Virus record (IMG/VR): IMGVR_UViG_3300027801_000149
Location: 1-25,164 of that record
Reading direction: 5' to 3' (one strand)
Source of the DNA: a virus
Length of the DNA stretch: 25,164 nucleotides
The notes under the pieces were generated by a model. It did no database searches and was not told where the DNA came from. It worked only from the letters and a program-made list of their open reading frames with translations. This document shows positions 7,738 to 20,556 of the stretch, one piece after another (position 1 is the first letter of the stretch; the number at the start of each line of letters is the position of its first letter). The position numbers and the translations under genes are program-made.

Positions 7738-7962
7738 ATGGGAAAACAAATACAAACAGACGATCCAAGATTTGTTAGAGATGTGGAATCCAAAGCCTTA
7801 TTGAGTACAGATCATAATGCTTTACAACAACATAGACAAGAACGCGTATATTTTGAGAACCAACGGAGAGACATAAATATAATGAAAGATCAAATAGAAC
7901 ATTTAACAAAAGTAACTGAAGAAATGTTAGAAATAAAAACTCTTCTTAGGAATTTCAAATGA
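7738..7962 (+). CDS. Small helical protein between baseplate and fibre genes
   Basis: A 74-residue charged protein beginning four bases after the giant structural gene and ending in an ATGA overlap with the next fibre gene, so the two are probably translationally coupled. No clear Shine-Dalgarno is visible, which suggests reading by coupling from the upstream gene. The second half (DINIMKDQIEHLTKVTEEML and a following hydrophobic-spaced stretch) has regularly spaced I/M/L residues typical of an amphipathic helix or short coiled coil. There is no signal peptide or membrane segment. I do not recognise a named family. Position suggests a minor virion component or a fibre assembly or oligomerisation factor. 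The reading frame is well supported by its tight packing; the function is unknown. Confidence 0.65.
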   Translation: MGKQIQTDDPRFVRDVESKALLSTDHNALQQHRQERVYFENQRRDINIMKDQIEHLTKVTEEMLEIKTLLRNFK

Positions 7963-8651
7963 CAGCAAATGTTGAACTAACGGATACGTTTGGAACTTTC
8001 CGATCTAAAAGTAATGAACTTGTAGCAATGACTCATGATGGAATGAATAATTTCATCAAGGTATTGGATACTACAGACTCAACGAGTAATATTACTGGTT
8101 CGATTGTTACTGCAGGAGGTATTGGAGTAGCTGGAAGTGGAACTATCGGTGGAAATTTTAATGTTCATGGAAATCTCCATGCAAACGGAGCTATTTCAGC
8201 AGATGGAAATTTACAACTTGGGGATGCCGCAACTGATACAGTAACTTTTAGTGCTGATATAAATTCACACATTATACCTGATATCGATGATACTTATGAT
8301 TTAGGTTCATCTGGACAAAAGTGGAAAGACCTTTATGTGGATGGTGTATCTTATCTTGATGCTATAAACCTTAATGGTACTGCAATTTCTGCAACGTCTG
8401 ACCAAATTAATTATAATGTTATTAGTGCATTAGGAACAGCAGAAGTAAGTAAGACTGTTACAAGTGATGCAGCTGGTAATGTTATTTTTGTGGATGGGGC
8501 ATGTAATATAGATATAGCAAGTCATGACGGTACAAATGGATTAAAACTGGGTGGAACACTAGTTACAAAAACAGCTGCTCAGATTAACTCTGCCGCAACA
8601 AATGAGGAAGCGACAGCAGTTGCCGTTTCAATGGCAATAGCATTAGGATAA
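7959..8651 (+). CDS. Tail fibre-like protein (N-terminal paralogue of the S74 fibre at 15053)
   Basis: A 230-residue protein. Residues 1-120 are clearly paralogous to the N-terminus of the fibre at 15053: both start MTANV-LTDTF and share NELxxMT, GMNNFIKVLDT, GGIGV, GNLxxGDAxTDxVTF and ADINSxIIP. This is likely the attachment part. A DLGSSGQKWKDLY unit (residues 114-126) is a common repeat of phage fibres near their distal domains. Residues from about 152 to the end form a small module that recurs as the separate protein at 8691. Unlike its paralogue it has no C-terminal S74 chaperone, so it is either a short fibre or a shortened descendant. Start ATG overlaps the previous stop (ATGA). The fibre call is firm; the partner is unknown. 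Confidence 0.7.
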   Translation: MTANVELTDTFGTFRSKSNELVAMTHDGMNNFIKVLDTTDSTSNITGSIVTAGGIGVAGSGTIGGNFNVHGNLHANGAISADGNLQLGDAATDTVTFSADINSHIIPDIDDTYDLGSSGQKWKDLYVDGVSYLDAINLNGTAISATSDQINYNVISALGTAEVSKTVTSDAAGNVIFVDGACNIDIASHDGTNGLKLGGTLVTKTAAQINSAATNEEATAVAVSMAIALG

Positions 8652-8690: not shown

Positions 8691-8921
8691 ATGTCACAAG
8701 CAAGAAATATCGCTAATTTTGGTGTACATGCAACTACTCCTGCTGGTGCGGTGACATTCCTAGATGGTGCAACGGATGTAGATATTGCTCAACATGACGG
8801 TACAAATGGATTAAAACTGGGTGGAACACTAGTTACAAAAACTGCAACTGAACTTAATGCCACGGCATCAAATGAAGAAGCGACAGCAGTTGCCGTTTCA
8901 ATGGCAATAGCATTAGGATAA
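8691..8921 (+). CDS. Stand-alone copy of a fibre C-terminal module
   Basis: A 76-residue protein whose body repeats the last ~75 residues of the preceding fibre: QHDGTNGLKLGGTLVTKTA and the last 15 residues (from NEEATAVAVSM to the stop) are identical to it. The N-terminus MSQARNIANFG differs and resembles the opening of small tail proteins in other marine phages. Over parts of the gene the DNA is identical to the upstream copy (50 and 46 nt blocks), while flanking parts are diverged, so the pair looks like old paralogues with recent exchange or duplication. AGGA lies about 12 nt before the ATG and a late promoter box just upstream. It may be a cap or trimerisation module acting beside the fibre at 7959. 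Real expression is likely but unproven. Confidence 0.6.
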   Translation: MSQARNIANFGVHATTPAGAVTFLDGATDVDIAQHDGTNGLKLGGTLVTKTATELNATASNEEATAVAVSMAIALG

Positions 8922-9269: not shown

Positions 9270-10199
9270 ATGTCAATGATAGGCAGACAGCCAGCACGAG
9301 CAGCAATGACTGCGGATGATATTGGAAATAATACTATAGATTCAAATAAAATAATTAATTCTTCTATAGTAGCAGCAGATATTGGTGCTCTTGATGCTTC
9401 AGTAATGACAGGTGTTATGCCAGTTGGTGTTACAGGAGGTTCTGGATTGGATGCTATATCAGGAGTTGGAGGTTCCACTTTTACAGCTGTAGCAGATGGA
9501 GCAATAGCGGCTGGAGATGAATGCATTGTAACCTCGGCAGGAAAACTAGCAAAGATTGCCTCATCTACGTCTGATGTGTATTTTGGCCCAAGTACAGCTG
9601 GATTGTTTAATGATTGGAGTACTGGCAATGGATTTAGGCAGTATGAAATCTACGACAAGTTGTGGAACCACGCACAATCTCTGAGTCCCAATCCTTTCGC
9701 TTCTCAAGATGCCATGAAACAAGCAGCATATAATTCTTTTACTAATGCAAGTTGGGGAATAAATTTCCACCAGGACGGAAGTGGTGGCTATGGAAATATG
9801 ACGCAAATTCATGTTAATACGAGTGGTGTGTATAGTGATTATTATTTGACTGTAAACAGTATCACTTGCATCTCAGCTACTGGTAGTGCGCCAAATACCA
9901 CCAATCTTTCCACCCTTTTCAGCTGGCTGACGTATAAGCAGTTGGTGTTTAGATTTCAATATTCAGCTACAGTAACAAATGTGACTGCAACAAATTTTTG
10001 TGGATGGGCCGATGGTGCATATGCAGATGGAGTTAGTGCTACAATTAATTTAAAAGGTACTATAGAAACAGGCCTAACTGGTTTGACGACAGGATCATCA
10101 TATTATATACAGAAAAACGGAACTTTAAGTACGACAACTGATGATCCTTCGGTTTTAGCTGGTGTTGCACTTGCAACTAACAAATTATTGGTAGGATAA
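9270..10199 (+). CDS. Modular tail fibre/adhesin with swappable central domain
   Basis: A 309-residue protein in three parts. Residues 1-65 carry fibre-type NTIDSNKIINSSIVAADIG repeats, typical of phage fibre N-termini. Residues 70-99 (VADGAIAAGDECIVTSAGKL) match the N-module of the propeller protein at 13029 (IADGAISDGAKCILREDGKV). Residues 236-309 (WADGAYADG, GLTTGSSYYIQKNGTL and the final strands) match the last 75 residues of the same protein. The central part, residues ~100-238, is unique, rich in Trp, Tyr, Phe and Asn, and its codons are visibly richer in C than the flanks, as expected for an exchanged receptor-binding domain. It is followed after 9 nt by a tail assembly chaperone-like gene, suggesting a fibre-chaperone pair. 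No enzyme motif was seen. Confidence 0.7.
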   Translation: MSMIGRQPARAAMTADDIGNNTIDSNKIINSSIVAADIGALDASVMTGVMPVGVTGGSGLDAISGVGGSTFTAVADGAIAAGDECIVTSAGKLAKIASSTSDVYFGPSTAGLFNDWSTGNGFRQYEIYDKLWNHAQSLSPNPFASQDAMKQAAYNSFTNASWGINFHQDGSGGYGNMTQIHVNTSGVYSDYYLTVNSITCISATGSAPNTTNLSTLFSWLTYKQLVFRFQYSATVTNVTATNFCGWADGAYADGVSATINLKGTIETGLTGLTTGSSYYIQKNGTLSTTTDDPSVLAGVALATNKLLVG

Positions 10200-13028: not shown

Positions 13029-14684
13029 ATGAGCGGATTACTTAATAAAATAGGTTCAAGGTCCGGCAAAATTTGGGCCGGACAGGCTAGAGAAGCATCT
13101 ACAGGAGGAGGAGGAGCCGCTCCGACTTGGGATACTATTGCAGATGGAGCAATATCTGATGGTGCTAAATGTATTCTTAGAGAAGATGGAAAAGTTAGTG
13201 GTTTACCGAGTGAAGATGCATCAGCCCTTTATGGAGAAGGATCAACGGGCGATGAAGTACATGACAACGGCAACAAGGCGATCACAGCTTATGATACTAC
13301 CACTAATAAGATAATTTGTATGTATAACACCACCACATCTGGTGGTAACTGGAATAAAGCAGCTTTGCGTCATGGCACGGTAGATGGGGCTACTAAAACA
13401 ATCACATGGAGCAACGAGGTCATACTTAGTGTCGGACAAAATCAAGGCCATGCCATGTGTGTTGATTCTCACTCTGGAATCATATCCTGTTTCTTTCGTG
13501 ATACCGGTAATAGCTTTTACTGTTCCGCTAGACTCGCAAAAGTCGTTGCTCTTCCGCATGCTTTTGATACAAGTTCAATTATTACTATAGAGTCTGCTGT
13601 TGGAGCTCCCTACGCCGCCGAATACGATGAGCAAAATCAGAGAGTAATATTAGTCTGGAATGGTTCCTCTTATAATACATACGCGCAAGCATTTTCCCAG
13701 TCATCCATGGGTTCAAGCTTGTACTGGACACCACAGGGTAGTAAAATAAACCTTAATATATCCTCTTTGGGTGCCTATGCTTCTGCTTGGAAGCCAGGTT
13801 CAGGAGGAGGTATGCTTTTCGCCGGCAAATGGGGTAATTACTCGATGATTACGCCAATATATCTACCAAATCAGTCAAGTAATGTAGTGCATGGGACTGA
13901 TAAGTTCCTTGATATTGGAAACAGCTCAGGAACCTCAACATCGTATGACGAACATATACACGCAGTATATGATCCAGATACCGGTAATTTCTTGGTAACT
14001 CGCAAGCGAGGAGCTGGCATGCCGAACATATATCCACATGCTGATGCAAGGGATACTGTGTCTACGGTTGTTGAAGTCGGAGGTTCTTCTTTTAATTCTT
14101 TTTCTGTCAAGGCTACGGTAAAAGTCGCTGATGCATTACCGGATCCCGGAAGTGGAACTGGTTACAACTTCGGTAATTATGGTGGTAATCTTGGATACCA
14201 TGAAGGAGAAAATAAATATATATGTGCCTGGTATAGTGAAGGGGACACTGATAACGGTTGGGTAAAAATTGGCCATATAGTATCTGGCCAGATCGTTTGG
14301 TCTACTGGAGCATACAAATTTTCTTCCACCGCGAACATGGCCATGTTTGGGCCCTCAGCTGTTTGGGATCCCGATGAAGGTGAATTAATTTTATTCTATA
14401 ATAATTATTCTACAAACCATATTGAGGCCACATTCATCGATCCCTCGGTGGCTCTGACCAATTTAACTGCATCAAATTTTATTGGTATTGCCGATGGAGC
14501 TTATGCAGATGGTACTACAGCAAAAATCCAAATGCGCGGGCATATTGACGATGCTCAATCAGGTTTAACAATAGGTACAGAATATTTTGTACGATCTGAT
14601 GGAACATTAGCAACGACAGCAGATGCAATTGGGTCAATCCCGGCCGGCAAAGCTCTCAGTTCGACTAAAATTTTAATTAAATAA
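13029..14684 (+). CDS. Modular adhesin with predicted seven-repeat beta-propeller centre
   Basis: A 551-residue protein. The N-terminus (SGLLNKIGSRSGKIW) is a fibre-type leader, followed by a Gly linker and the IADGAISDGAKCILREDGKV module (37-56) shared with 9270. Residues ~80-475 show about seven repeats of ~50-60 residues, each with a strand pair around a turn: AITAYDTTTNKIICMYN, HAMCVDSHSGIISCFFRD, YAAEYDEQNQRVILVWNG, YASAWKPGSGGGMLFAGKW, IHAVYDPDTGNFLVTRKRG, LGYHEGENKYICAWYSEG and SAVWDPDEGELILFYNN. This fits blades of a beta-propeller, a frequent glycan-binding fold. Residues 477-551 (GIADGAYADG ... GLTIGTEYF) match the C-terminus of 9270. Codon choice in the centre looks richer in C than its neighbours. 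Most likely a receptor-binding protein; glycan hydrolysis is not excluded, but no catalytic signature was recognised. Confidence 0.7.
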   Translation: MSGLLNKIGSRSGKIWAGQAREASTGGGGAAPTWDTIADGAISDGAKCILREDGKVSGLPSEDASALYGEGSTGDEVHDNGNKAITAYDTTTNKIICMYNTTTSGGNWNKAALRHGTVDGATKTITWSNEVILSVGQNQGHAMCVDSHSGIISCFFRDTGNSFYCSARLAKVVALPHAFDTSSIITIESAVGAPYAAEYDEQNQRVILVWNGSSYNTYAQAFSQSSMGSSLYWTPQGSKINLNISSLGAYASAWKPGSGGGMLFAGKWGNYSMITPIYLPNQSSNVVHGTDKFLDIGNSSGTSTSYDEHIHAVYDPDTGNFLVTRKRGAGMPNIYPHADARDTVSTVVEVGGSSFNSFSVKATVKVADALPDPGSGTGYNFGNYGGNLGYHEGENKYICAWYSEGDTDNGWVKIGHIVSGQIVWSTGAYKFSSTANMAMFGPSAVWDPDEGELILFYNNYSTNHIEATFIDPSVALTNLTASNFIGIADGAYADGTTAKIQMRGHIDDAQSGLTIGTEYFVRSDGTLATTADAIGSIPAGKALSSTKILIK

Positions 14685-14988: not shown

Positions 14989-15056
14989 TGAAAACCATTG
15001 ATGAAAAATTAGCTGCCAAAAATGCATACTACAAAGATAAAAGGGATAACTCATGA
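14988..15056 (+). CDS. 22-residue microprotein linking two genes
   Basis: The frame reads MKTIDEKLAAKNAYYKDKRD plus two residues. Its ATG overlaps the preceding TAA (TAATG) and its TGA overlaps the next ATG (ATGA), so it exactly bridges 14692 and 15053. It could be a short leader peptide that carries ribosomes to the S74 fibre gene, or a tiny charged helix. AGAGGAA before the ATG would serve as ribosome-binding site. Very short, so moderate confidence. Confidence 0.45.
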   Translation: MKTIDEKLAAKNAYYKDKRDNS

Positions 15057-16456
15057 CAGCAAATGTAGCCTTAACTGATACTTTTGACCAATGGCGAGTC
15101 AAAGATAATGAACTTATTATAATGACTCAGCCTAGTGGAATGAATAATTTCATTAAGGTACTTGATACAGCAAATTCTACTACACCTACTTCGGGTTCTA
15201 TAATTACCCATGGCGGTATAGGAGTAGGAAAATCTGTACATATAGGAGAAGATTTAAAAGTCTGGGGCGATATTAACTGTGTAGGTGATACTACAGTAGG
15301 TGGTAATCTTATATTTGGTGACGCCACAACAGATCAAGTAACCTTTGAAGCAGATATAAATTCTGATATAATTCCAAATACAACTCTTGTATTTGATTTG
15401 GGTAATACCACCCATTTCTGGGCAAATACTTTTACAGGACATTTGACAGCTTCACAAAAAGTAGATTCAGGTAAACCTGCTCTTACTGTTGAAGCGATAG
15501 ATGTTGATCAAATAGCAGTAGATATAAATGCTTCTACTGAAACCGCAAATGCTGTAGATATTTCAGCAGATTCTATTACTACTGGTACCGCATTTAAACT
15601 TTCTTCTGGTGCCATTACTAGTGGTATAATGATGGATCTTGTTAGTGCTGCAACAATTACAGGAACTGGACTTAATGTTGCATTAGATTCATTAACTACT
15701 GGTAAAGTTGTGAATATTTCTGCAGACGGACTTACTTCAGGTTCAGCTCTTTATGTTGAATCAAATTCAGCTGATGTCACCGCAAGACATTTAATAAGTT
15801 CAATTAATAACAACGCCGCAGCAGCTGGAGCAATCCCAATTTATGCTCAACAAGATGGTGTAGCACCATGTGGACAATTTGCCGGAACAACTTCTCTTGT
15901 AGTTCCTTGTGGTACTGATGCTAATAGAGGTACTGGAGTACAGGGAGGAATTAGATTTAATAATCAATTTAATTTCTTTGAAGGATATACTGGGTCTGTA
16001 TGGACACAAATGGGTGCAGTAGAAGATGTGGATGAAGACACCCATGTACGAGCAGAAACTTCTCCTGGAACGGATAATGATGAATTAAAATTTACAACGG
16101 CTGGAACATTACGAATGACTATTGAAGCCGATGGAGATGTTATTGTTGCTGGGACAATTACTGAACAGTCTATGAGAGAACTAAAAACAAATATCTCAAA
16201 TATTGAAAATGTTCTACCTTCTGTTTTACAAATGCAAGGAGTGAAATACGATTGGAAAGATGAAACTAAATCACAAGATAGAAATTATGGATTTATTGCA
16301 GAAGATGTAGATCAAATTTTTCCAGATTTGGTATCCCATGATGATAGTGGAAAGCCAAAAGCTATTGCTTATACAAAAATGACTGCTATTCTTTTAGAAG
16401 CTATTAAAGAACAACAAAATCAAATAAACGAATTAAAATCTAAAATAGGAGTCTAA
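15053..16456 (+). CDS. Tail fibre/spike with C-terminal S74 intramolecular chaperone
   Basis: A 467-residue protein. Residues 1-125 are the attachment region shared with the fibre at 7959. Residues ~140-245 contain repeats of about 18-20 residues (DSITTGTAFKLSSGAITSGI, DSLTTGKVVNISADGLTSGS), consistent with a triple-stranded beta-helix shaft. From residue 373 (SMRELKTNISNIENVLP, then VKYDWKD, NYGFIAEDV, ALAYTK-like AIAYTKMTAILLEAIKEQQN) it carries the peptidase S74/endosialidase chaperone domain, which trimerises the fibre and cleaves itself off at the conserved Ser. The usual Ser-Asp is Ser373-Met374 here, followed by the expected R-x-LK. The C-terminal helix should form the trimeric coiled coil. 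Start ATG overlaps the preceding microORF stop. High confidence in domain; cleavage is by family knowledge. Confidence 0.85.
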   Translation: MTANVALTDTFDQWRVKDNELIIMTQPSGMNNFIKVLDTANSTTPTSGSIITHGGIGVGKSVHIGEDLKVWGDINCVGDTTVGGNLIFGDATTDQVTFEADINSDIIPNTTLVFDLGNTTHFWANTFTGHLTASQKVDSGKPALTVEAIDVDQIAVDINASTETANAVDISADSITTGTAFKLSSGAITSGIMMDLVSAATITGTGLNVALDSLTTGKVVNISADGLTSGSALYVESNSADVTARHLISSINNNAAAAGAIPIYAQQDGVAPCGQFAGTTSLVVPCGTDANRGTGVQGGIRFNNQFNFFEGYTGSVWTQMGAVEDVDEDTHVRAETSPGTDNDELKFTTAGTLRMTIEADGDVIVAGTITEQSMRELKTNISNIENVLPSVLQMQGVKYDWKDETKSQDRNYGFIAEDVDQIFPDLVSHDDSGKPKAIAYTKMTAILLEAIKEQQNQINELKSKIGV

Positions 16457-17123: not shown

Positions 17124-18398
17124 ATGGCACTAAGTAGGATGGTAATAACTGCTGCAGGAGCAGGAGGACAAGCCATAGAATATACATATTCCAGTGATAC
17201 TCTAACTGCCGATTTACTCACCCAAGCAATTTCTGCTGGATGGGATTCCACAAAACCAGGCACTTTTACAGCATATGTCGGAGACGGATCTAATTCTATC
17301 GGACTGTATTCAAATTCAGGAAATGCATCACACTATGGGTTGTCTTTTGGATCTGGATGGGCAGCTGATACCATAATCAATCTTATAGTAAAAAATAACT
17401 CCATTATTGTTGGAACCGCAGGAAATGGTGGTGCCGGTGGTTCTGGAGGAGCCGGTGGTTCTGGAGGTTCTGGTGGCAGCGGAGGCGGCGGAGGTTCTGG
17501 TGGAATCGGCCGGAATTGTTGGGGAAATGTCGCGCCATCGGGAGGAACAGGAGGAGGAGGAGGAAACTCCGGTAGTTCAGGTAGTTCAGGTAGTGGAAGT
17601 AGTATAGGCTCAATTGGTTCAGCTGGAACACATGCAATAAATATGAATTGGCTAGGAGGAGCAGTCAACATTACTGTCGATTCAGGAGGTAGTATTGTCG
17701 GTGGTGGAGGCGGCGGTGCTGGTGCTTCTGGTGGTACTGGAGGAGGCGGTGGAACTGGCGGAACTGGAGGAGGCGGTGGAACTGGCGGAACTGGAGGTAA
17801 TACTTGTGCTGCACCGATGGGAGGTTGGCCCCAAAGTAGTAGATGGGGTGGGTACTCCTGTTGGCCTGATCAATCAAGTCATAACGGTGGGACTGGAGGT
17901 TCTGGTGGAACTGGCGGAACTGGAGGTTCTGGTGGAACTGGAGGTGCCGGAGGAGCAGGAGGTATTGGCGGTAAAGGTGCGGGATGGACAAAAGATTGTT
18001 CTAGTAATCTTTCGTCATGTCTCAATACAGACGCAGATTCTGGGGGCGGAAGTTCTTCTGGTTCTGGTGGTGCGAGTGGTAATTCCGGAAGTGGAGGATC
18101 TGGTGGAGGAGCTGGTTCAGGGCCAGGCACATACTGTAACGGGCAAGCTCCTTGCAATTATAGCTGTTCCACATGGAGTCAAGGTAACACAGGAGCAACA
18201 GGAAGTTCTGGAGGAACTGGAAGTGGAGGTTCAACCGGTAGTGGTGGAGGAACAGCAGCTACCGGTGGTGCATATGGATCCACAGGGGCTGGTATAGCAA
18301 CTATTATAGGAGGTGCAGCAGGTAATGCTATAATTAATGGATCTCACAGTTCTGTCACACTTATAAATAATGGAACAGTATCAGGATCGGTAACTTAA
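17124..18398 (+). CDS. Glycine-rich, cysteine-looped tip adhesin (gp38-like architecture)
   Basis: A 424-residue protein. Residues 1-98 are a non-repetitive head (TKPGTFTAYVGDGSNSIGLY, INLIVKNNSIIVG). From residue 99 onward, long GGx/GGxGG tracts alternate with short non-glycine loops. All eight Cys (132, 228, 246, 292, 299, 338, 344, 348) lie in those loops, as do most of the aromatic residues of this region. A second strand unit (AVNITVDSGGSIVGG, 180-194) repeats the INLIVKNNSIIVG unit, and the end (SVTLINNGTVSGSVT) is a third. This layout, Gly-rich polyglycine-II-type sheets displaying variable loops, is the architecture of gp38-type adhesins of T-even-like phages (for example S16) that bind host receptors at the long fibre tip. 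No sequence family was confirmed. Codon use is biased to GGA/GGT/GGC. Likely the key host-range determinant. Confidence 0.7.
   Translation: MALSRMVITAAGAGGQAIEYTYSSDTLTADLLTQAISAGWDSTKPGTFTAYVGDGSNSIGLYSNSGNASHYGLSFGSGWAADTIINLIVKNNSIIVGTAGNGGAGGSGGAGGSGGSGGSGGGGGSGGIGRNCWGNVAPSGGTGGGGGNSGSSGSSGSGSSIGSIGSAGTHAINMNWLGGAVNITVDSGGSIVGGGGGGAGASGGTGGGGGTGGTGGGGGTGGTGGNTCAAPMGGWPQSSRWGGYSCWPDQSSHNGGTGGSGGTGGTGGSGGTGGAGGAGGIGGKGAGWTKDCSSNLSSCLNTDADSGGGSSSGSGGASGNSGSGGSGGGAGSGPGTYCNGQAPCNYSCSTWSQGNTGATGSSGGTGSGGSTGSGGGTAATGGAYGSTGAGIATIIGGAAGNAIINGSHSSVTLINNGTVSGSVT
17739..17792 (+). repeat. Perfect in-frame 27-nt tandem repeat, two copies
   Basis: Two identical 27-nt units (17739-17765 and 17766-17792) encode Gly/Thr-rich nonapeptides. 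A related, imperfect 27-nt unit is repeated at 17892-17918 and 17919-17945. Units are multiples of three, so slippage would change the length of the glycine sheets without breaking the frame. Confidence 0.85.
18362..18369 (+). promoter_or_regulatory. Candidate intragenic late promoter box TATAAATA
   Basis: A perfect T4-type late box inside the last codons of the glycine-rich adhesin gene, 41 nt before the ATG at 18411. This spacing resembles that at 12211 (44 nt before its ATG). It would allow extra transcription of 18411-20134, including the halogenase. It also encodes in-frame Leu-Ile-Asn-Asn, so chance is possible. Confidence 0.4.
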
Positions 18399-18700: not shown

Positions 18701-18889
18701 ATGGGATCAATTTTAAAGGCATTGAAGAAAAAAGGGAGAGAATTGATTGAAAGAGGAGAAGAAAGAATGAAAATATGCAACCCGTGTGAATTTTTCTCAA
18801 CAAAAACAGGACAATGTAAGCAATGTGGATGTTTCATGGTCATAAAATCTAAAATTAAAAATTCCACTTGCCCTATAGATAAATGGTAA
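18701..18889 (+). CDS. Six-cysteine metal-ribbon-like protein
   Basis: A 62-residue basic protein. Residues 1-22 form a charged helix (LKALKKKGRELIERGEERM). The rest is a CxxC (26, 29) ... CxxCxC (39, 42, 44) ... CP (57) ... W pattern: ICNPCEFFS, GQCKQCGCFMVIKSKI, NSTCPIDKW. This is the arrangement of small zinc- or iron-binding ribbons seen in many marine phages (DUF6171-like, from memory). It lies three bases before the halogenase start and two bases after the previous stop, so it is cotranscribed with the halogenase. It could bind metal and have a redox or regulatory role, but this is speculation; a virion accessory role is equally possible. Confidence 0.65.
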   Translation: MGSILKALKKKGRELIERGEERMKICNPCEFFSTKTGQCKQCGCFMVIKSKIKNSTCPIDKW

Positions 18890-18892
18890 TTG

Positions 18893-20134
18893 ATGAAAGT
18901 TGTGATAGTCGGAGGTGGTAATGCAGGGTGTATAACTGCATTAGAATGGGGATTTATTTCTCAAACTTGGGAAAGATCAAGTCCACTTGAAGTTGAATTA
19001 ATTTATGATCCAAATGATAAACCTATACCCGTAGGACAAGGTACCGCTAGTGATTTATCTCAACTTATCTATAAACTCGGTTTTGACTGGTATAATAATC
19101 CTATAGAGGCTACACCAAAAGCTGGAATTATATTTGAAGACTGGGGCAAGAAAAATCATAAATTTATAAATTACTTAGAAAATGCAGCCATGGCAATGCA
19201 TTTCGACCCTCCTAATTTTCAAAAATATATATTAAATTCTGGTTTATTTAACATAATTGAAGATCGTATTGATGATATATCAACAATCGATGCTGATTTT
19301 ATATTTGATTGTACAGGTGGTAGACTGAATAATGATACAGAAAATTACAATAAACTTATTTCTACAGTAAATTCTAGTATAATAAGTAGAGTAAAGGGGA
19401 GAGACTATACACAGCTATGGACTCGGGCAGTGACTACTCCTGATGGATGGACATTTATAATACCACAGACCGACAATACAACAATTTATGGTTATGTGTA
19501 CAATAATCACATAACAGATGAAACCACGGCAAGAGAAAATATTAATAAATTATTTAATATAGAACCTGATGATATGATGAATCGGGTAATAAATTTTGAT
19601 TCATTTGTTGCTAAAGAAGTTATATCGGAACATAGAATAATTAAAAATGGTAATAAATTAGCTGCTTTTGATCCTCTTGACGCTCCTGCTACATCTTTAC
19701 ATATAATGGTTGCAGAATGGTGTCAAAATTTTATTTCTCATAAGATGAATTCTCCAGCTGAATTAGCTGGGACCCAAGATATTGTGGAAAAAGGCATATT
19801 AGATTATGTACATGAAATTGAAACGTTTCAATTATGGCATTATCAGTTTGGATCTAAATATGATACTCCATTTTGGGATTATGCAAAAACATTAGCTGAC
19901 AATTATTTCAATGATAATGAATATGGTAAAGAATTTAAAAATAGAATTAAACTTATAAACAACTTTTCAGAGCTTGATCTTTGTTCTATATTTTCTAAAA
20001 CTCTGCGAGTGCCAGCAGTTCTTGATGATACTCTTTTAGAATATAAAGGAATTTCTTATACCGGTAGTGATTTATTTTATGGGCCATGGGATGCAAAATC
20101 TCTCCAAAATTGGTATACTAACGTTGTTAATTGA
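18893..20134 (+). CDS. Flavin-dependent (tryptophan-type) halogenase family enzyme
   Basis: From the ATG at 18893 it has 413 residues; the TTG at 18890 would add one residue and is less likely. It opens with an FAD-binding motif VVIVGGGNAGCITA (GxGxxG: G7, G9, G12). IPVGQGTASDL (45-55) replaces the usual VGExTxP segment. ATPKAGIIFEDW carries Lys76, in the position of the catalytic Lys of PrnA-type halogenases that forms the haloamine. The family hallmark WxWxIP appears as W186-T-F-I-I-P191, with Trp changed to Phe. DPLDAPATS (260-268) takes the place of the PLES region with its catalytic Glu. These FADH2-using enzymes halogenate aromatic substrates; a cyanophage relative (VirX1) is described as iodinating diverse substrates. 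It lies among tail genes, cotranscribed with the Cys-rich protein. The family call is good; substrate and halide are unknown. Confidence 0.75.
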   Translation: MKVVIVGGGNAGCITALEWGFISQTWERSSPLEVELIYDPNDKPIPVGQGTASDLSQLIYKLGFDWYNNPIEATPKAGIIFEDWGKKNHKFINYLENAAMAMHFDPPNFQKYILNSGLFNIIEDRIDDISTIDADFIFDCTGGRLNNDTENYNKLISTVNSSIISRVKGRDYTQLWTRAVTTPDGWTFIIPQTDNTTIYGYVYNNHITDETTARENINKLFNIEPDDMMNRVINFDSFVAKEVISEHRIIKNGNKLAAFDPLDAPATSLHIMVAEWCQNFISHKMNSPAELAGTQDIVEKGILDYVHEIETFQLWHYQFGSKYDTPFWDYAKTLADNYFNDNEYGKEFKNRIKLINNFSELDLCSIFSKTLRVPAVLDDTLLEYKGISYTGSDLFYGPWDAKSLQNWYTNVVN

Positions 20135-20214: not shown

Positions 20215-20556
20215 GTGGCATTAACTCTGCAAAAACAAACTTTAAATTTTGTATTAGACCAAGGTTGCACCTTTTCTAAAGTTGTTACCGCTAAAGATAC
20301 CGCAGGAGCAAATGTTACAATTTCTACTGGAACTACAGCAGGTAAAATGCGACAATCCTACCATTCATCGAATAATGTTCATGCTTTCACTACAGTAATT
20401 GAAGGATCAAATGTGACATTTTCTTTGACCTCTACACAAACAACAGCAATATCAGATGGAAATTATGTATTTGATGTAGAATATACACAAGCAGGAGGAG
20501 ATATAGAAAGAGTAGTAGAAGGTCTTATAACAGTTTCACCGGAGGCGACAAAATAA
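20215..20556 (+). CDS. Small beta-sandwich virion protein before gp13
   Basis: A 113-residue protein starting at GTG (20215), with GGAG 7 nt upstream; no better ATG is in frame nearby. The sequence (LNFVLDQGCTFSKVVTAKD, GKMRQSYHSSNNVHAF, NYVFDVEYTQAGGDIERVVE, GLITVSPEATK) follows the pattern of small phage structural domains with DxGxTFxxxxxxxD ... MRxSY ... GxYVFDVE ... G.VTVSPEVT, which resemble the N-terminal beta-sandwich of upper baseplate proteins and occur next to gp13 in marine T4-like phages. Its stop overlaps the gp13 start (TAATG). Likely a minor capsid/neck or tail component made in late infection; role unproven. Confidence 0.7.
   Translation: MALTLQKQTLNFVLDQGCTFSKVVTAKDTAGANVTISTGTTAGKMRQSYHSSNNVHAFTTVIEGSNVTFSLTSTQTTAISDGNYVFDVEYTQAGGDIERVVEGLITVSPEATK

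Follow-up and report, generated by a model that had tools for sequence, protein, structure and literature searches.

Flavin-dependent halogenases that act on free tryptophan, such as PrnA, RebH, PyrH and SttH, have a long form with a Trp pocket segment, a WxWxIP motif and an intact EPLESTG. WxWxIP and Fx.Px.Sx.G have been described as marks of active halogenases, and WxWxIP variants, or its absence, are also known among active enzymes (PMC8407142). VirX1 from cyanophage Syn10 is a phage-borne flavin-dependent halogenase of 530 aa, with WVWNIP and an intact PLESTG. Two further enzymes are peptidyl-tryptophan brominases of a short form that combines GWxF with the catalytic Lys and a Glu in EPLEA. 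SrpI (proteusin, marine sponge microbiome) brominates a peptide C-terminal Trp but not free Trp (PMC10286304), and its published residues are K84, Y102, P105, Q106, Q107, V108, S109 and Y110 (PMC10858898, PMC10286304); MppI (lanthipeptide, Moorena) has K73 as its catalytic lysine (PMC11791876). Short phage proteins annotated as tryptophan halogenases are encoded by S-ShM2, S-SSM5, Sf-CH8 and AG-345-E15 (T4-like GC 212/phrog_2928), and we found no biochemical characterization of them in the open-licence PMC literature. The cyanophage 'prnA' genes have stood for more than a decade without a function, and the papers concerned, as far as their available text goes, still invoke free-tryptophan or antibiotic chemistry. 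A search of the accessible portions of the open-licence PMC literature found no earlier statement that connects halogenases of phages with SrpI or with virion proteins, and the available portions of a review on peptide halogenation (PMC12615548) contain no passage on phage halogenases.

The short halogenase considered here, denoted HAL, is encoded in a 25,164-nt fragment of a virus record (the window; G+C 0.365) that carries tail fibre and neck genes, all on the + strand. The large frame at its end has a counterpart in a related contig (L001) that, judged from its translation, looks like a terminase. HAL is read from an ATG to a stop codon at 20132-20134, and a mechanical open reading frame call begins at a TTG one codon before ATG 18893. 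A preliminary description of this DNA had assigned HAL to the halogenase family, and the assignment is borne out by matches to Pfam PF04820 (Trp_halogenase; E 2.6e-28, 99.5 bits against a curated cut-off of 21) and to PHROG 2928 'tryptophan halogenase' (phrog_2928; 6.5e-56), so that, on these profile scores, the family match is far above chance. Solved halogenases, for example MibH, PyrH and PrnA, are matched as well. An AlphaFold model from a 55-row alignment (mean pLDDT 86.3, pTM 0.88) has the halogenase fold. With Foldseek and VIA-align, all of the matches listed are flavin-dependent halogenases; the best is SttH (Z 36.0, rmsd 3.0, 363 residues), with VirX1 (6qgm) below it at Z 26.4. A predicted fold common to HAL and halogenases would nevertheless say nothing decisive on function.

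Table 1. Coordinates of HAL, its catalytic motifs and the neighbouring features in the window.
Feature	Position	Strand	Basis
Tail fibre tip protein, 216 aa	16458..17108	+	Tail fibre PHROGs
Gly-rich putative tip adhesin, 424 aa	17124..18398	+	Identity to L025, L184 and L185 homologues
TATAAATA, late-promoter-like	18362..18369	+	Same place in sibling (L001:1889)
Small acidic protein of adhesin cassette, 95 aa	18411..18698	+	Homologues in L001, L184, L185
DUF6171 protein, 62 aa, C-terminal Trp, separated from HAL by 3 nt	18701..18889	+	PF19668, 9.7e-10
HAL, short flavin-dependent halogenase, 413 aa	18893..20134	+	Pfam PF04820, phrog_2928, AlphaFold model, SttH fold match
GxGxxG dinucleotide-binding motif, G7-G12	18911..18928	+	Sequence
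K76, equivalent of PrnA K79, SrpI K84, MppI K73	19118..19120	+	PrnA alignment
WTFIIP, W186-P191, variant of WxWxIP	19448..19465	+	Sequence
D263 (GAC), equivalent of PrnA E346	19679..19681	+	Profile alignment to PrnA
113-aa protein, right edge of accessory insertion	20215..20556	+	Directly after DUF6171 in L184/L185

HAL shares fold, GxGxxG and lysine with PrnA, RebH, PyrH and SttH, and fold and lysine also with VirX1. The FAD motif and Lys76 are kept, as had been claimed: G7-G12 are present, with G7 and G9 invariant and G12 found in at least 90% of the A4 alignment, and K76 aligns with PrnA K79 (the PrnA numbers K79 and E346 were counted by hand from the printed profile alignment). In a motif census of 88 other rows, comprising 79 viral contigs and 9 named-phage proteins, with the sibling L024 excluded, the K76 position is K in 87 of the 87 rows with data. 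Strict WxWxIP is replaced by WTFIIP in HAL, so that the earlier reading of this motif stands; it is not a peculiarity of HAL, however, since Phe occupies position 188 in 86 of the 87 rows for which there are data, and WxF therefore marks the whole short clade. The PLES region was also read correctly, as D260-P-L-D263-A264, with Asp at the place of the PrnA E346-type active-site Glu. What does not hold is a replacement of the catalytic Glu at the level of the clade: position 263 is Glu in 84 rows, Gln in three and without data in one, and Asp occurs in the window alone. The codon there is GAC in the window versus GAA in both L001, a 95%-identical full-length sibling on the same contig as L024, and L002, a partial third copy. 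D263 as an evolved catalytic replacement was rejected, as it is private to the window contig and a one-codon change from the GAA of the siblings. Natural Gln at this position occurs in P-TIM40 (L008), S-SSM7 (L010) and Campylobacter phage CP21 (L012). According to PMC8407142, Glu to Gln in PrnA lowers activity by two orders of magnitude, Glu to Asp in MalA leaves low but observable activity, and phenol halogenases lack the catalytic Glu, which is tied to indole activation. At the Fx.Px.Sx.G tunnel motif the window, with A-FD-P-LD-A-P-A, retains the Pro only; F, P and S are retained in many clade members.

HAL differs from the free-tryptophan enzymes and from VirX1 in a segment after the lysine region, where the window has eight residues (95-102) versus 70 in VirX1, 63 in its Syn10 neighbour and 52 in the long S-SSM7 copy. 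The short phage clade and the SrpI-like proteins have 7-10 residues at this site, compared with 52-70 in VirX1 and the long halogenases, and GWxF is common to the same two short groups. The VirX1 sequence was taken from the Syn10 phage record (L014; 530 aa, with 531 aa in the 6qgm chain) and was told from its neighbour ORF by length. Searching the genomes of bacteria and archaea with the phage alignment gave 158 loci, of which 80 were kept. Eight of these (L103-L109 and L112) group with the phage sequences and probably represent viral contigs inside metagenome bins; L110-L129, apart from L112, are cellular proteins of 414-446 aa with 8-10 residues at the segment site and GWxF; and those from L130 onward are long, with 52-65 residues there in the five long rows checked. 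L135 has 56 residues at the site yet only 419 aa.

In a 77-row tree built by a quick method, three groups stand apart: short rows from phages, SrpI-like rows, and long rows, among them VirX1. The tree has no root, certain inner branches are weakly supported, and some of the rows sit on long branches. SrpI-like and long rows fall together on one side of a 97% branch, and an unrooted tree does not establish that the SrpI-like group is the sister of the short phage group. When VirX1 and its Syn10 neighbour were constrained to join 33 phage-clade rows, the log-likelihood fell by 149 (AU p 0.0005). VirX1, the phage enzyme to which HAL had been compared, belongs to the long group, is not close kin of HAL and was rejected as a close comparator. 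Phage-clade profile scores are 147-187 bits for 17 SrpI-like cellular rows, 57-122 for 17 long cellular rows and 80 for VirX1, a gap that is in part due to the missing segment. Being short does not settle the grouping, because the Campylobacter phage CP21 protein is short (399 aa) yet groups with the long side and retains WxW. The S-ShM2, S-SSM5, Sf-CH8 and AG-345-E15 enzymes have the family, size and WxF of HAL, are 23-40% identical to it and occupy other genome positions. Among the other loci, the VirX1 gene adjoins that of a second long halogenase of 507 aa, which joins VirX1 in the tree (HQ634191.1 114149-117086; L014, L020); in L085 a halogenase-like gene immediately precedes the halogenase; and L029:54-1175 gives a full-length halogenase match whose frame is open for only 124 codons, reflecting either a frameshifted copy or an assembly error.

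The cellular short group was typed by the published residue numbers, without the SrpI sequence, and these identify it as the SrpI/MppI family as far as the cited sources report them. All eight SrpI residues are found at identical numbers in L117 and L123, L111 and L114 deviate at 106 only, and K73 is present in L110, L115, L121 and L129, all of them cyanobacterial. RiPP markers (a C39-peptidase ABC transporter, with a threshold of 500 aligned residues, or YcaO) accompany 11 of 19 short cellular loci versus none of 53 long ones; the 11 include a number of closely related sponge members, so that fewer independent lineages are represented, and full length is confirmed for part of the 53. By profile score, the cellular proteins nearest to HAL are those of the SrpI/MppI family of peptidyl-tryptophan brominases. 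They also share with HAL a marine setting, and theirs are the highest profile scores among clearly cellular proteins; by contrast, identity is only about 23-28%, HAL sits among phage structural genes, and the Glu of their EPLEA, kept in the phage clade, is Asp in the window. HAL can therefore be called built like, and nearest to, SrpI/MppI on sequence grounds. We do not claim membership of that family, because its RiPP context and leader-binding loop were looked for in the phages and not found. C39-ABC, YcaO and HlyD queries drew no match in 92 viral sequences, a number that counts the window and duplicate loci, so that on these three queries the phages lack the gene cluster that surrounds SrpI. 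The SrpI leader-binding loop (104-110, TPQQVSY in the SrpI matches) is not conserved in the phage rows of the alignment, and cellular members of the K73 (MppI) type also differ from SrpI there. In Granulosicoccus (L122:1773-7311 and L127:1756-7311), a YcaO gene, a gene for a 192-200-aa protein, a FAD/halogenase-like gene and a short SrpI-like halogenase lie in a row that, from its gene content, looks like a halogenated-RiPP cluster.

The reported place of HAL, between the tip adhesin and the neck genes (from 20556 onward), is correct. The Gly-rich putative adhesin has no Pfam or PHROG match; its N-terminal part is 52% identical to a homologue in L025 and 67-68% to those in L184 and L185. L184 and L185 are collinear with the window through fibre, fibre tip, adhesin, small protein, DUF6171, 113-aa protein and neck genes, lack the halogenase, and align with the right flank across the empty site. 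In L025 a related enzyme (41% identical, joint group support 84%) lies between a fibre whose tip is 78% identical to the C-terminal part of the window fibre tip protein, and a homologous adhesin, a 100-aa protein and DUF6171. This contig seems to derive from another phage type, with a structural protein (phrog_684) and an endolysin downstream and no neck gene match. The HAL gene is accessory; two syntenic phages are without it, and a related copy resides in the same adhesin cassette of a different phage. Five loci with the adhesin were found (window, L001, L025, L184, L185), three of which have the enzyme, in two arrangements; no adhesin was found in the DNA examined of L040, from the same subclade. 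The association of enzyme and adhesin is suggestive for the window subclade only, since the position of the enzyme varies across the clade.

The suggestion of late promoters nearby fails as a matter of numbers, as TATAAATA occurs three times in the window against 4.25 expected. We rejected its count as evidence and used conservation only, which does favour the copy at 18362: it is found at the identical place in L001 and is absent from that position in the HAL-less L184 and L185. With TATAAATA before the 95-aa gene common to the window and L001, the late expression proposed earlier is plausible, and the data would fit a single late unit of the 95-aa, DUF6171 and halogenase genes starting at this box. 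At the empty sites (L184:6735-6804, L185:6768-6832), where the 113-aa gene follows DUF6171, the interval holds two TATAAATA boxes, both of which are disrupted in the window and L001.

We tentatively favour, with confidence a little short of even, the reading that HAL is a short halogenase made late in infection, that it has a protein or peptide substrate and is accessory, and that the allele in the window is weak or drifting. This reading builds on the computed family, fold, catalytic lysine and missing segment, and on a profile match that is closer to SrpI/MppI than to VirX1 or the long halogenases. By analogy with the family, FADH2 supplied by the host would react with O2 to give a flavin hydroperoxide, which would oxidize a halide, in seawater probably bromide, to HOX. 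HOX would pass to K76, from which X+ would be delivered to an aromatic ring with assistance from the acid at position 263. We propose with moderate confidence that the ring belongs to a Trp (or Tyr) residue of a protein or peptide and not to free Trp, because the missing segment would open the pocket as in SrpI and MppI. A protein substrate is also made more plausible by the nearest characterized relatives, which modify peptides. Openness of the pocket is no proof of a protein substrate, because an open active site is described for the long-segment enzyme VirX1 as well (PMC8407142). The enzyme would be produced from the unit starting at TATAAATA 18362 and be accessory to infection, and E263D with relaxed constraint suggests a weaker or drifting allele in the window contig.

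A stronger form of this last element, in which the window enzyme is a decaying or hypomorphic allele losing function, is compatible with either a peptide-directed or a metabolic role for the clade and deserves to be taken seriously, although we do not think it the probable case. For 30 pairs of relatives that match in length and have an identity of 85% or more, dN/dS lies at 0.00-0.25, and purifying selection in all 30 of these other pairs indicates that the clade enzyme is maintained. Window and sibling HAL, in contrast, differ by 22 replacements and five silent codon changes (dN/dS 1.14), compared with 33 replacements and 73 silent changes in the three downstream genes together (Fisher p 4e-6). 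This test covers HAL and the three downstream genes, with the 95-aa and DUF6171 genes outside it and the adhesin dropped as its length differs. YN00 gives dN 0.022 and dS 0.042 for the HAL pair, a ratio near 0.5, which is above the other pairs and below 1. The occurrence of Asp in the window alone, the low but observable activity reported for E to D in MalA (PMC8407142) and the absence of the gene from two syntenic relatives also favour decay, and D263 together with the clustered replacements would allow a relaxed function of the allele. On the other side, the frame is intact over 413 codons, K76 and HYQFGSKYDTPFW are unchanged, and only one contig is affected. Several of the 22 replacements bunch at 279-294, partly where most other rows are gapped, and a small exchange tract could inflate dN. 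The ratio of the 95-aa neighbour is raised too (0.135/0.175, dN over dS, with 0.044/0.15 for DUF6171), so that local diversifying exchange is possible; in this respect the 95-aa protein is unlike the neck genes. The dS of HAL (0.022 by NG86) is far under the 0.14-0.23 of the downstream genes, as expected if the gene had recently moved between window and sibling phages.

The competitor to the protein or peptide substrate, which we regard as a credible minority view, is an ordinary auxiliary metabolic role in which the enzyme would halogenate free tryptophan, indoles or some other small molecule of the host. Most annotated phage homologues are named tryptophan halogenase, VirX1 acts in this manner in vitro and the cyanophage 'prnA' literature assumes the same, with antibiotic protection for the host as the published speculation (PMC2984593, PMC9964418). 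The catalytic Glu present in 84 of 87 rows is, moreover, the residue that PMC8407142 connects with indole activation. Position also speaks for such a role, since a place that varies widely (gp23 slot, talC, gp33, 2OG oxygenases, fibres) is expected of a trans-acting gene. A conserved genome position for the clade was rejected, as neighbour families differ among 59 non-redundant loci. The neighbour scan took in 54 of the 59 genes upstream and 47 of the 58 downstream, the omitted 5 and 11 being mostly minus-strand or very short ORFs. Upstream, gp23 is commonest (9), followed by 2OG-Fe(II) oxygenase PHROGs (5 and 3) and NAD synthetase (3); downstream are tail tube (5), virion structural (4) and 2OG (4) genes. 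No enrichment is claimed for the 2OG neighbours because such oxygenases are common in these phages, with ten in S-CREM1 (PMC9964418). A slot between gp23 (major capsid) and a gp3-like tail completion gene is a recurrent place of short halogenases, seen in Sf-CH8 (L005) and several viral contigs, and the short clade is common in ocean virus contigs, with at least 544 relatives. Weighing against a small-molecule substrate are the peptidyl brominases as nearest characterized relatives by profile, the rejected kinship with VirX1 and the lack, after the lysine, of the very segment that is present in Trp halogenases.

The protein or peptide substrate that we favour can be extended to a bolder proposal, namely that marine phages carry a widespread clade of enzymes that halogenate protein, brominating Trp or Tyr in late proteins of the phage itself. 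In the window lineage the target would be the adhesin cassette, with its fibre tip, its Gly-rich adhesin, the 95-aa acidic protein and the DUF6171 protein with its terminal Trp. This virion-protein reading is derived from location in one subclade, and we consider it unlikely. DUF6171, whose C-terminal Trp recalls the site of SrpI, was not supported as the substrate. Its matches reach the last residue of the query in all 60 matches listed, of 149 phage records, and include Rhizobium and Stenotrophomonas phages outside the 31 halogenase-matching records; a C-terminal Trp is not enriched beside the halogenase (1 of 95 neighbours versus 4 of 521 others), and the DUF6171 protein of L185 extends three residues beyond the Trp. 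Trp/Tyr of the adhesins likewise gave no clear signal, with W counts of 9, 9 and 5 in the three with the enzyme versus 7 and 6 in the two without.

It is very improbable that HAL no longer halogenates and has become some other flavin enzyme, a hydroxylase or oxidase: strict WxWxIP is absent and Fx.Px.Sx.G largely lost, both being marks of active halogenases in PMC8407142, but cellular sequences that match the published residues of SrpI, itself active, carry the same GWIFxIP and EPLEATA, halogenases alone appear among the fold matches listed, and K76 and the Glu are conserved across the clade.

If the short clade is built like the peptidyl brominases, its role is directly testable through bromine in phage or host proteins of cultured isolates, and it would be a source of leader-independent or differently guided protein halogenases. 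Were the adhesin reading true, it would mean an enzymatically halogenated receptor-binding tip, a case of post-translational bromination in a virus. Tail fibre modules recur in the window (7959-8651, 8691-8921 and 15053-15433; 9963-10193 and 14445-14678): the 8691-8921 frame is 78% identical over 59 aa to the end of the 7959-8651 protein, the N-terminal part of a 467-aa fibre is common to the latter, and proteins of 309 and 551 aa share their C-terminal part.
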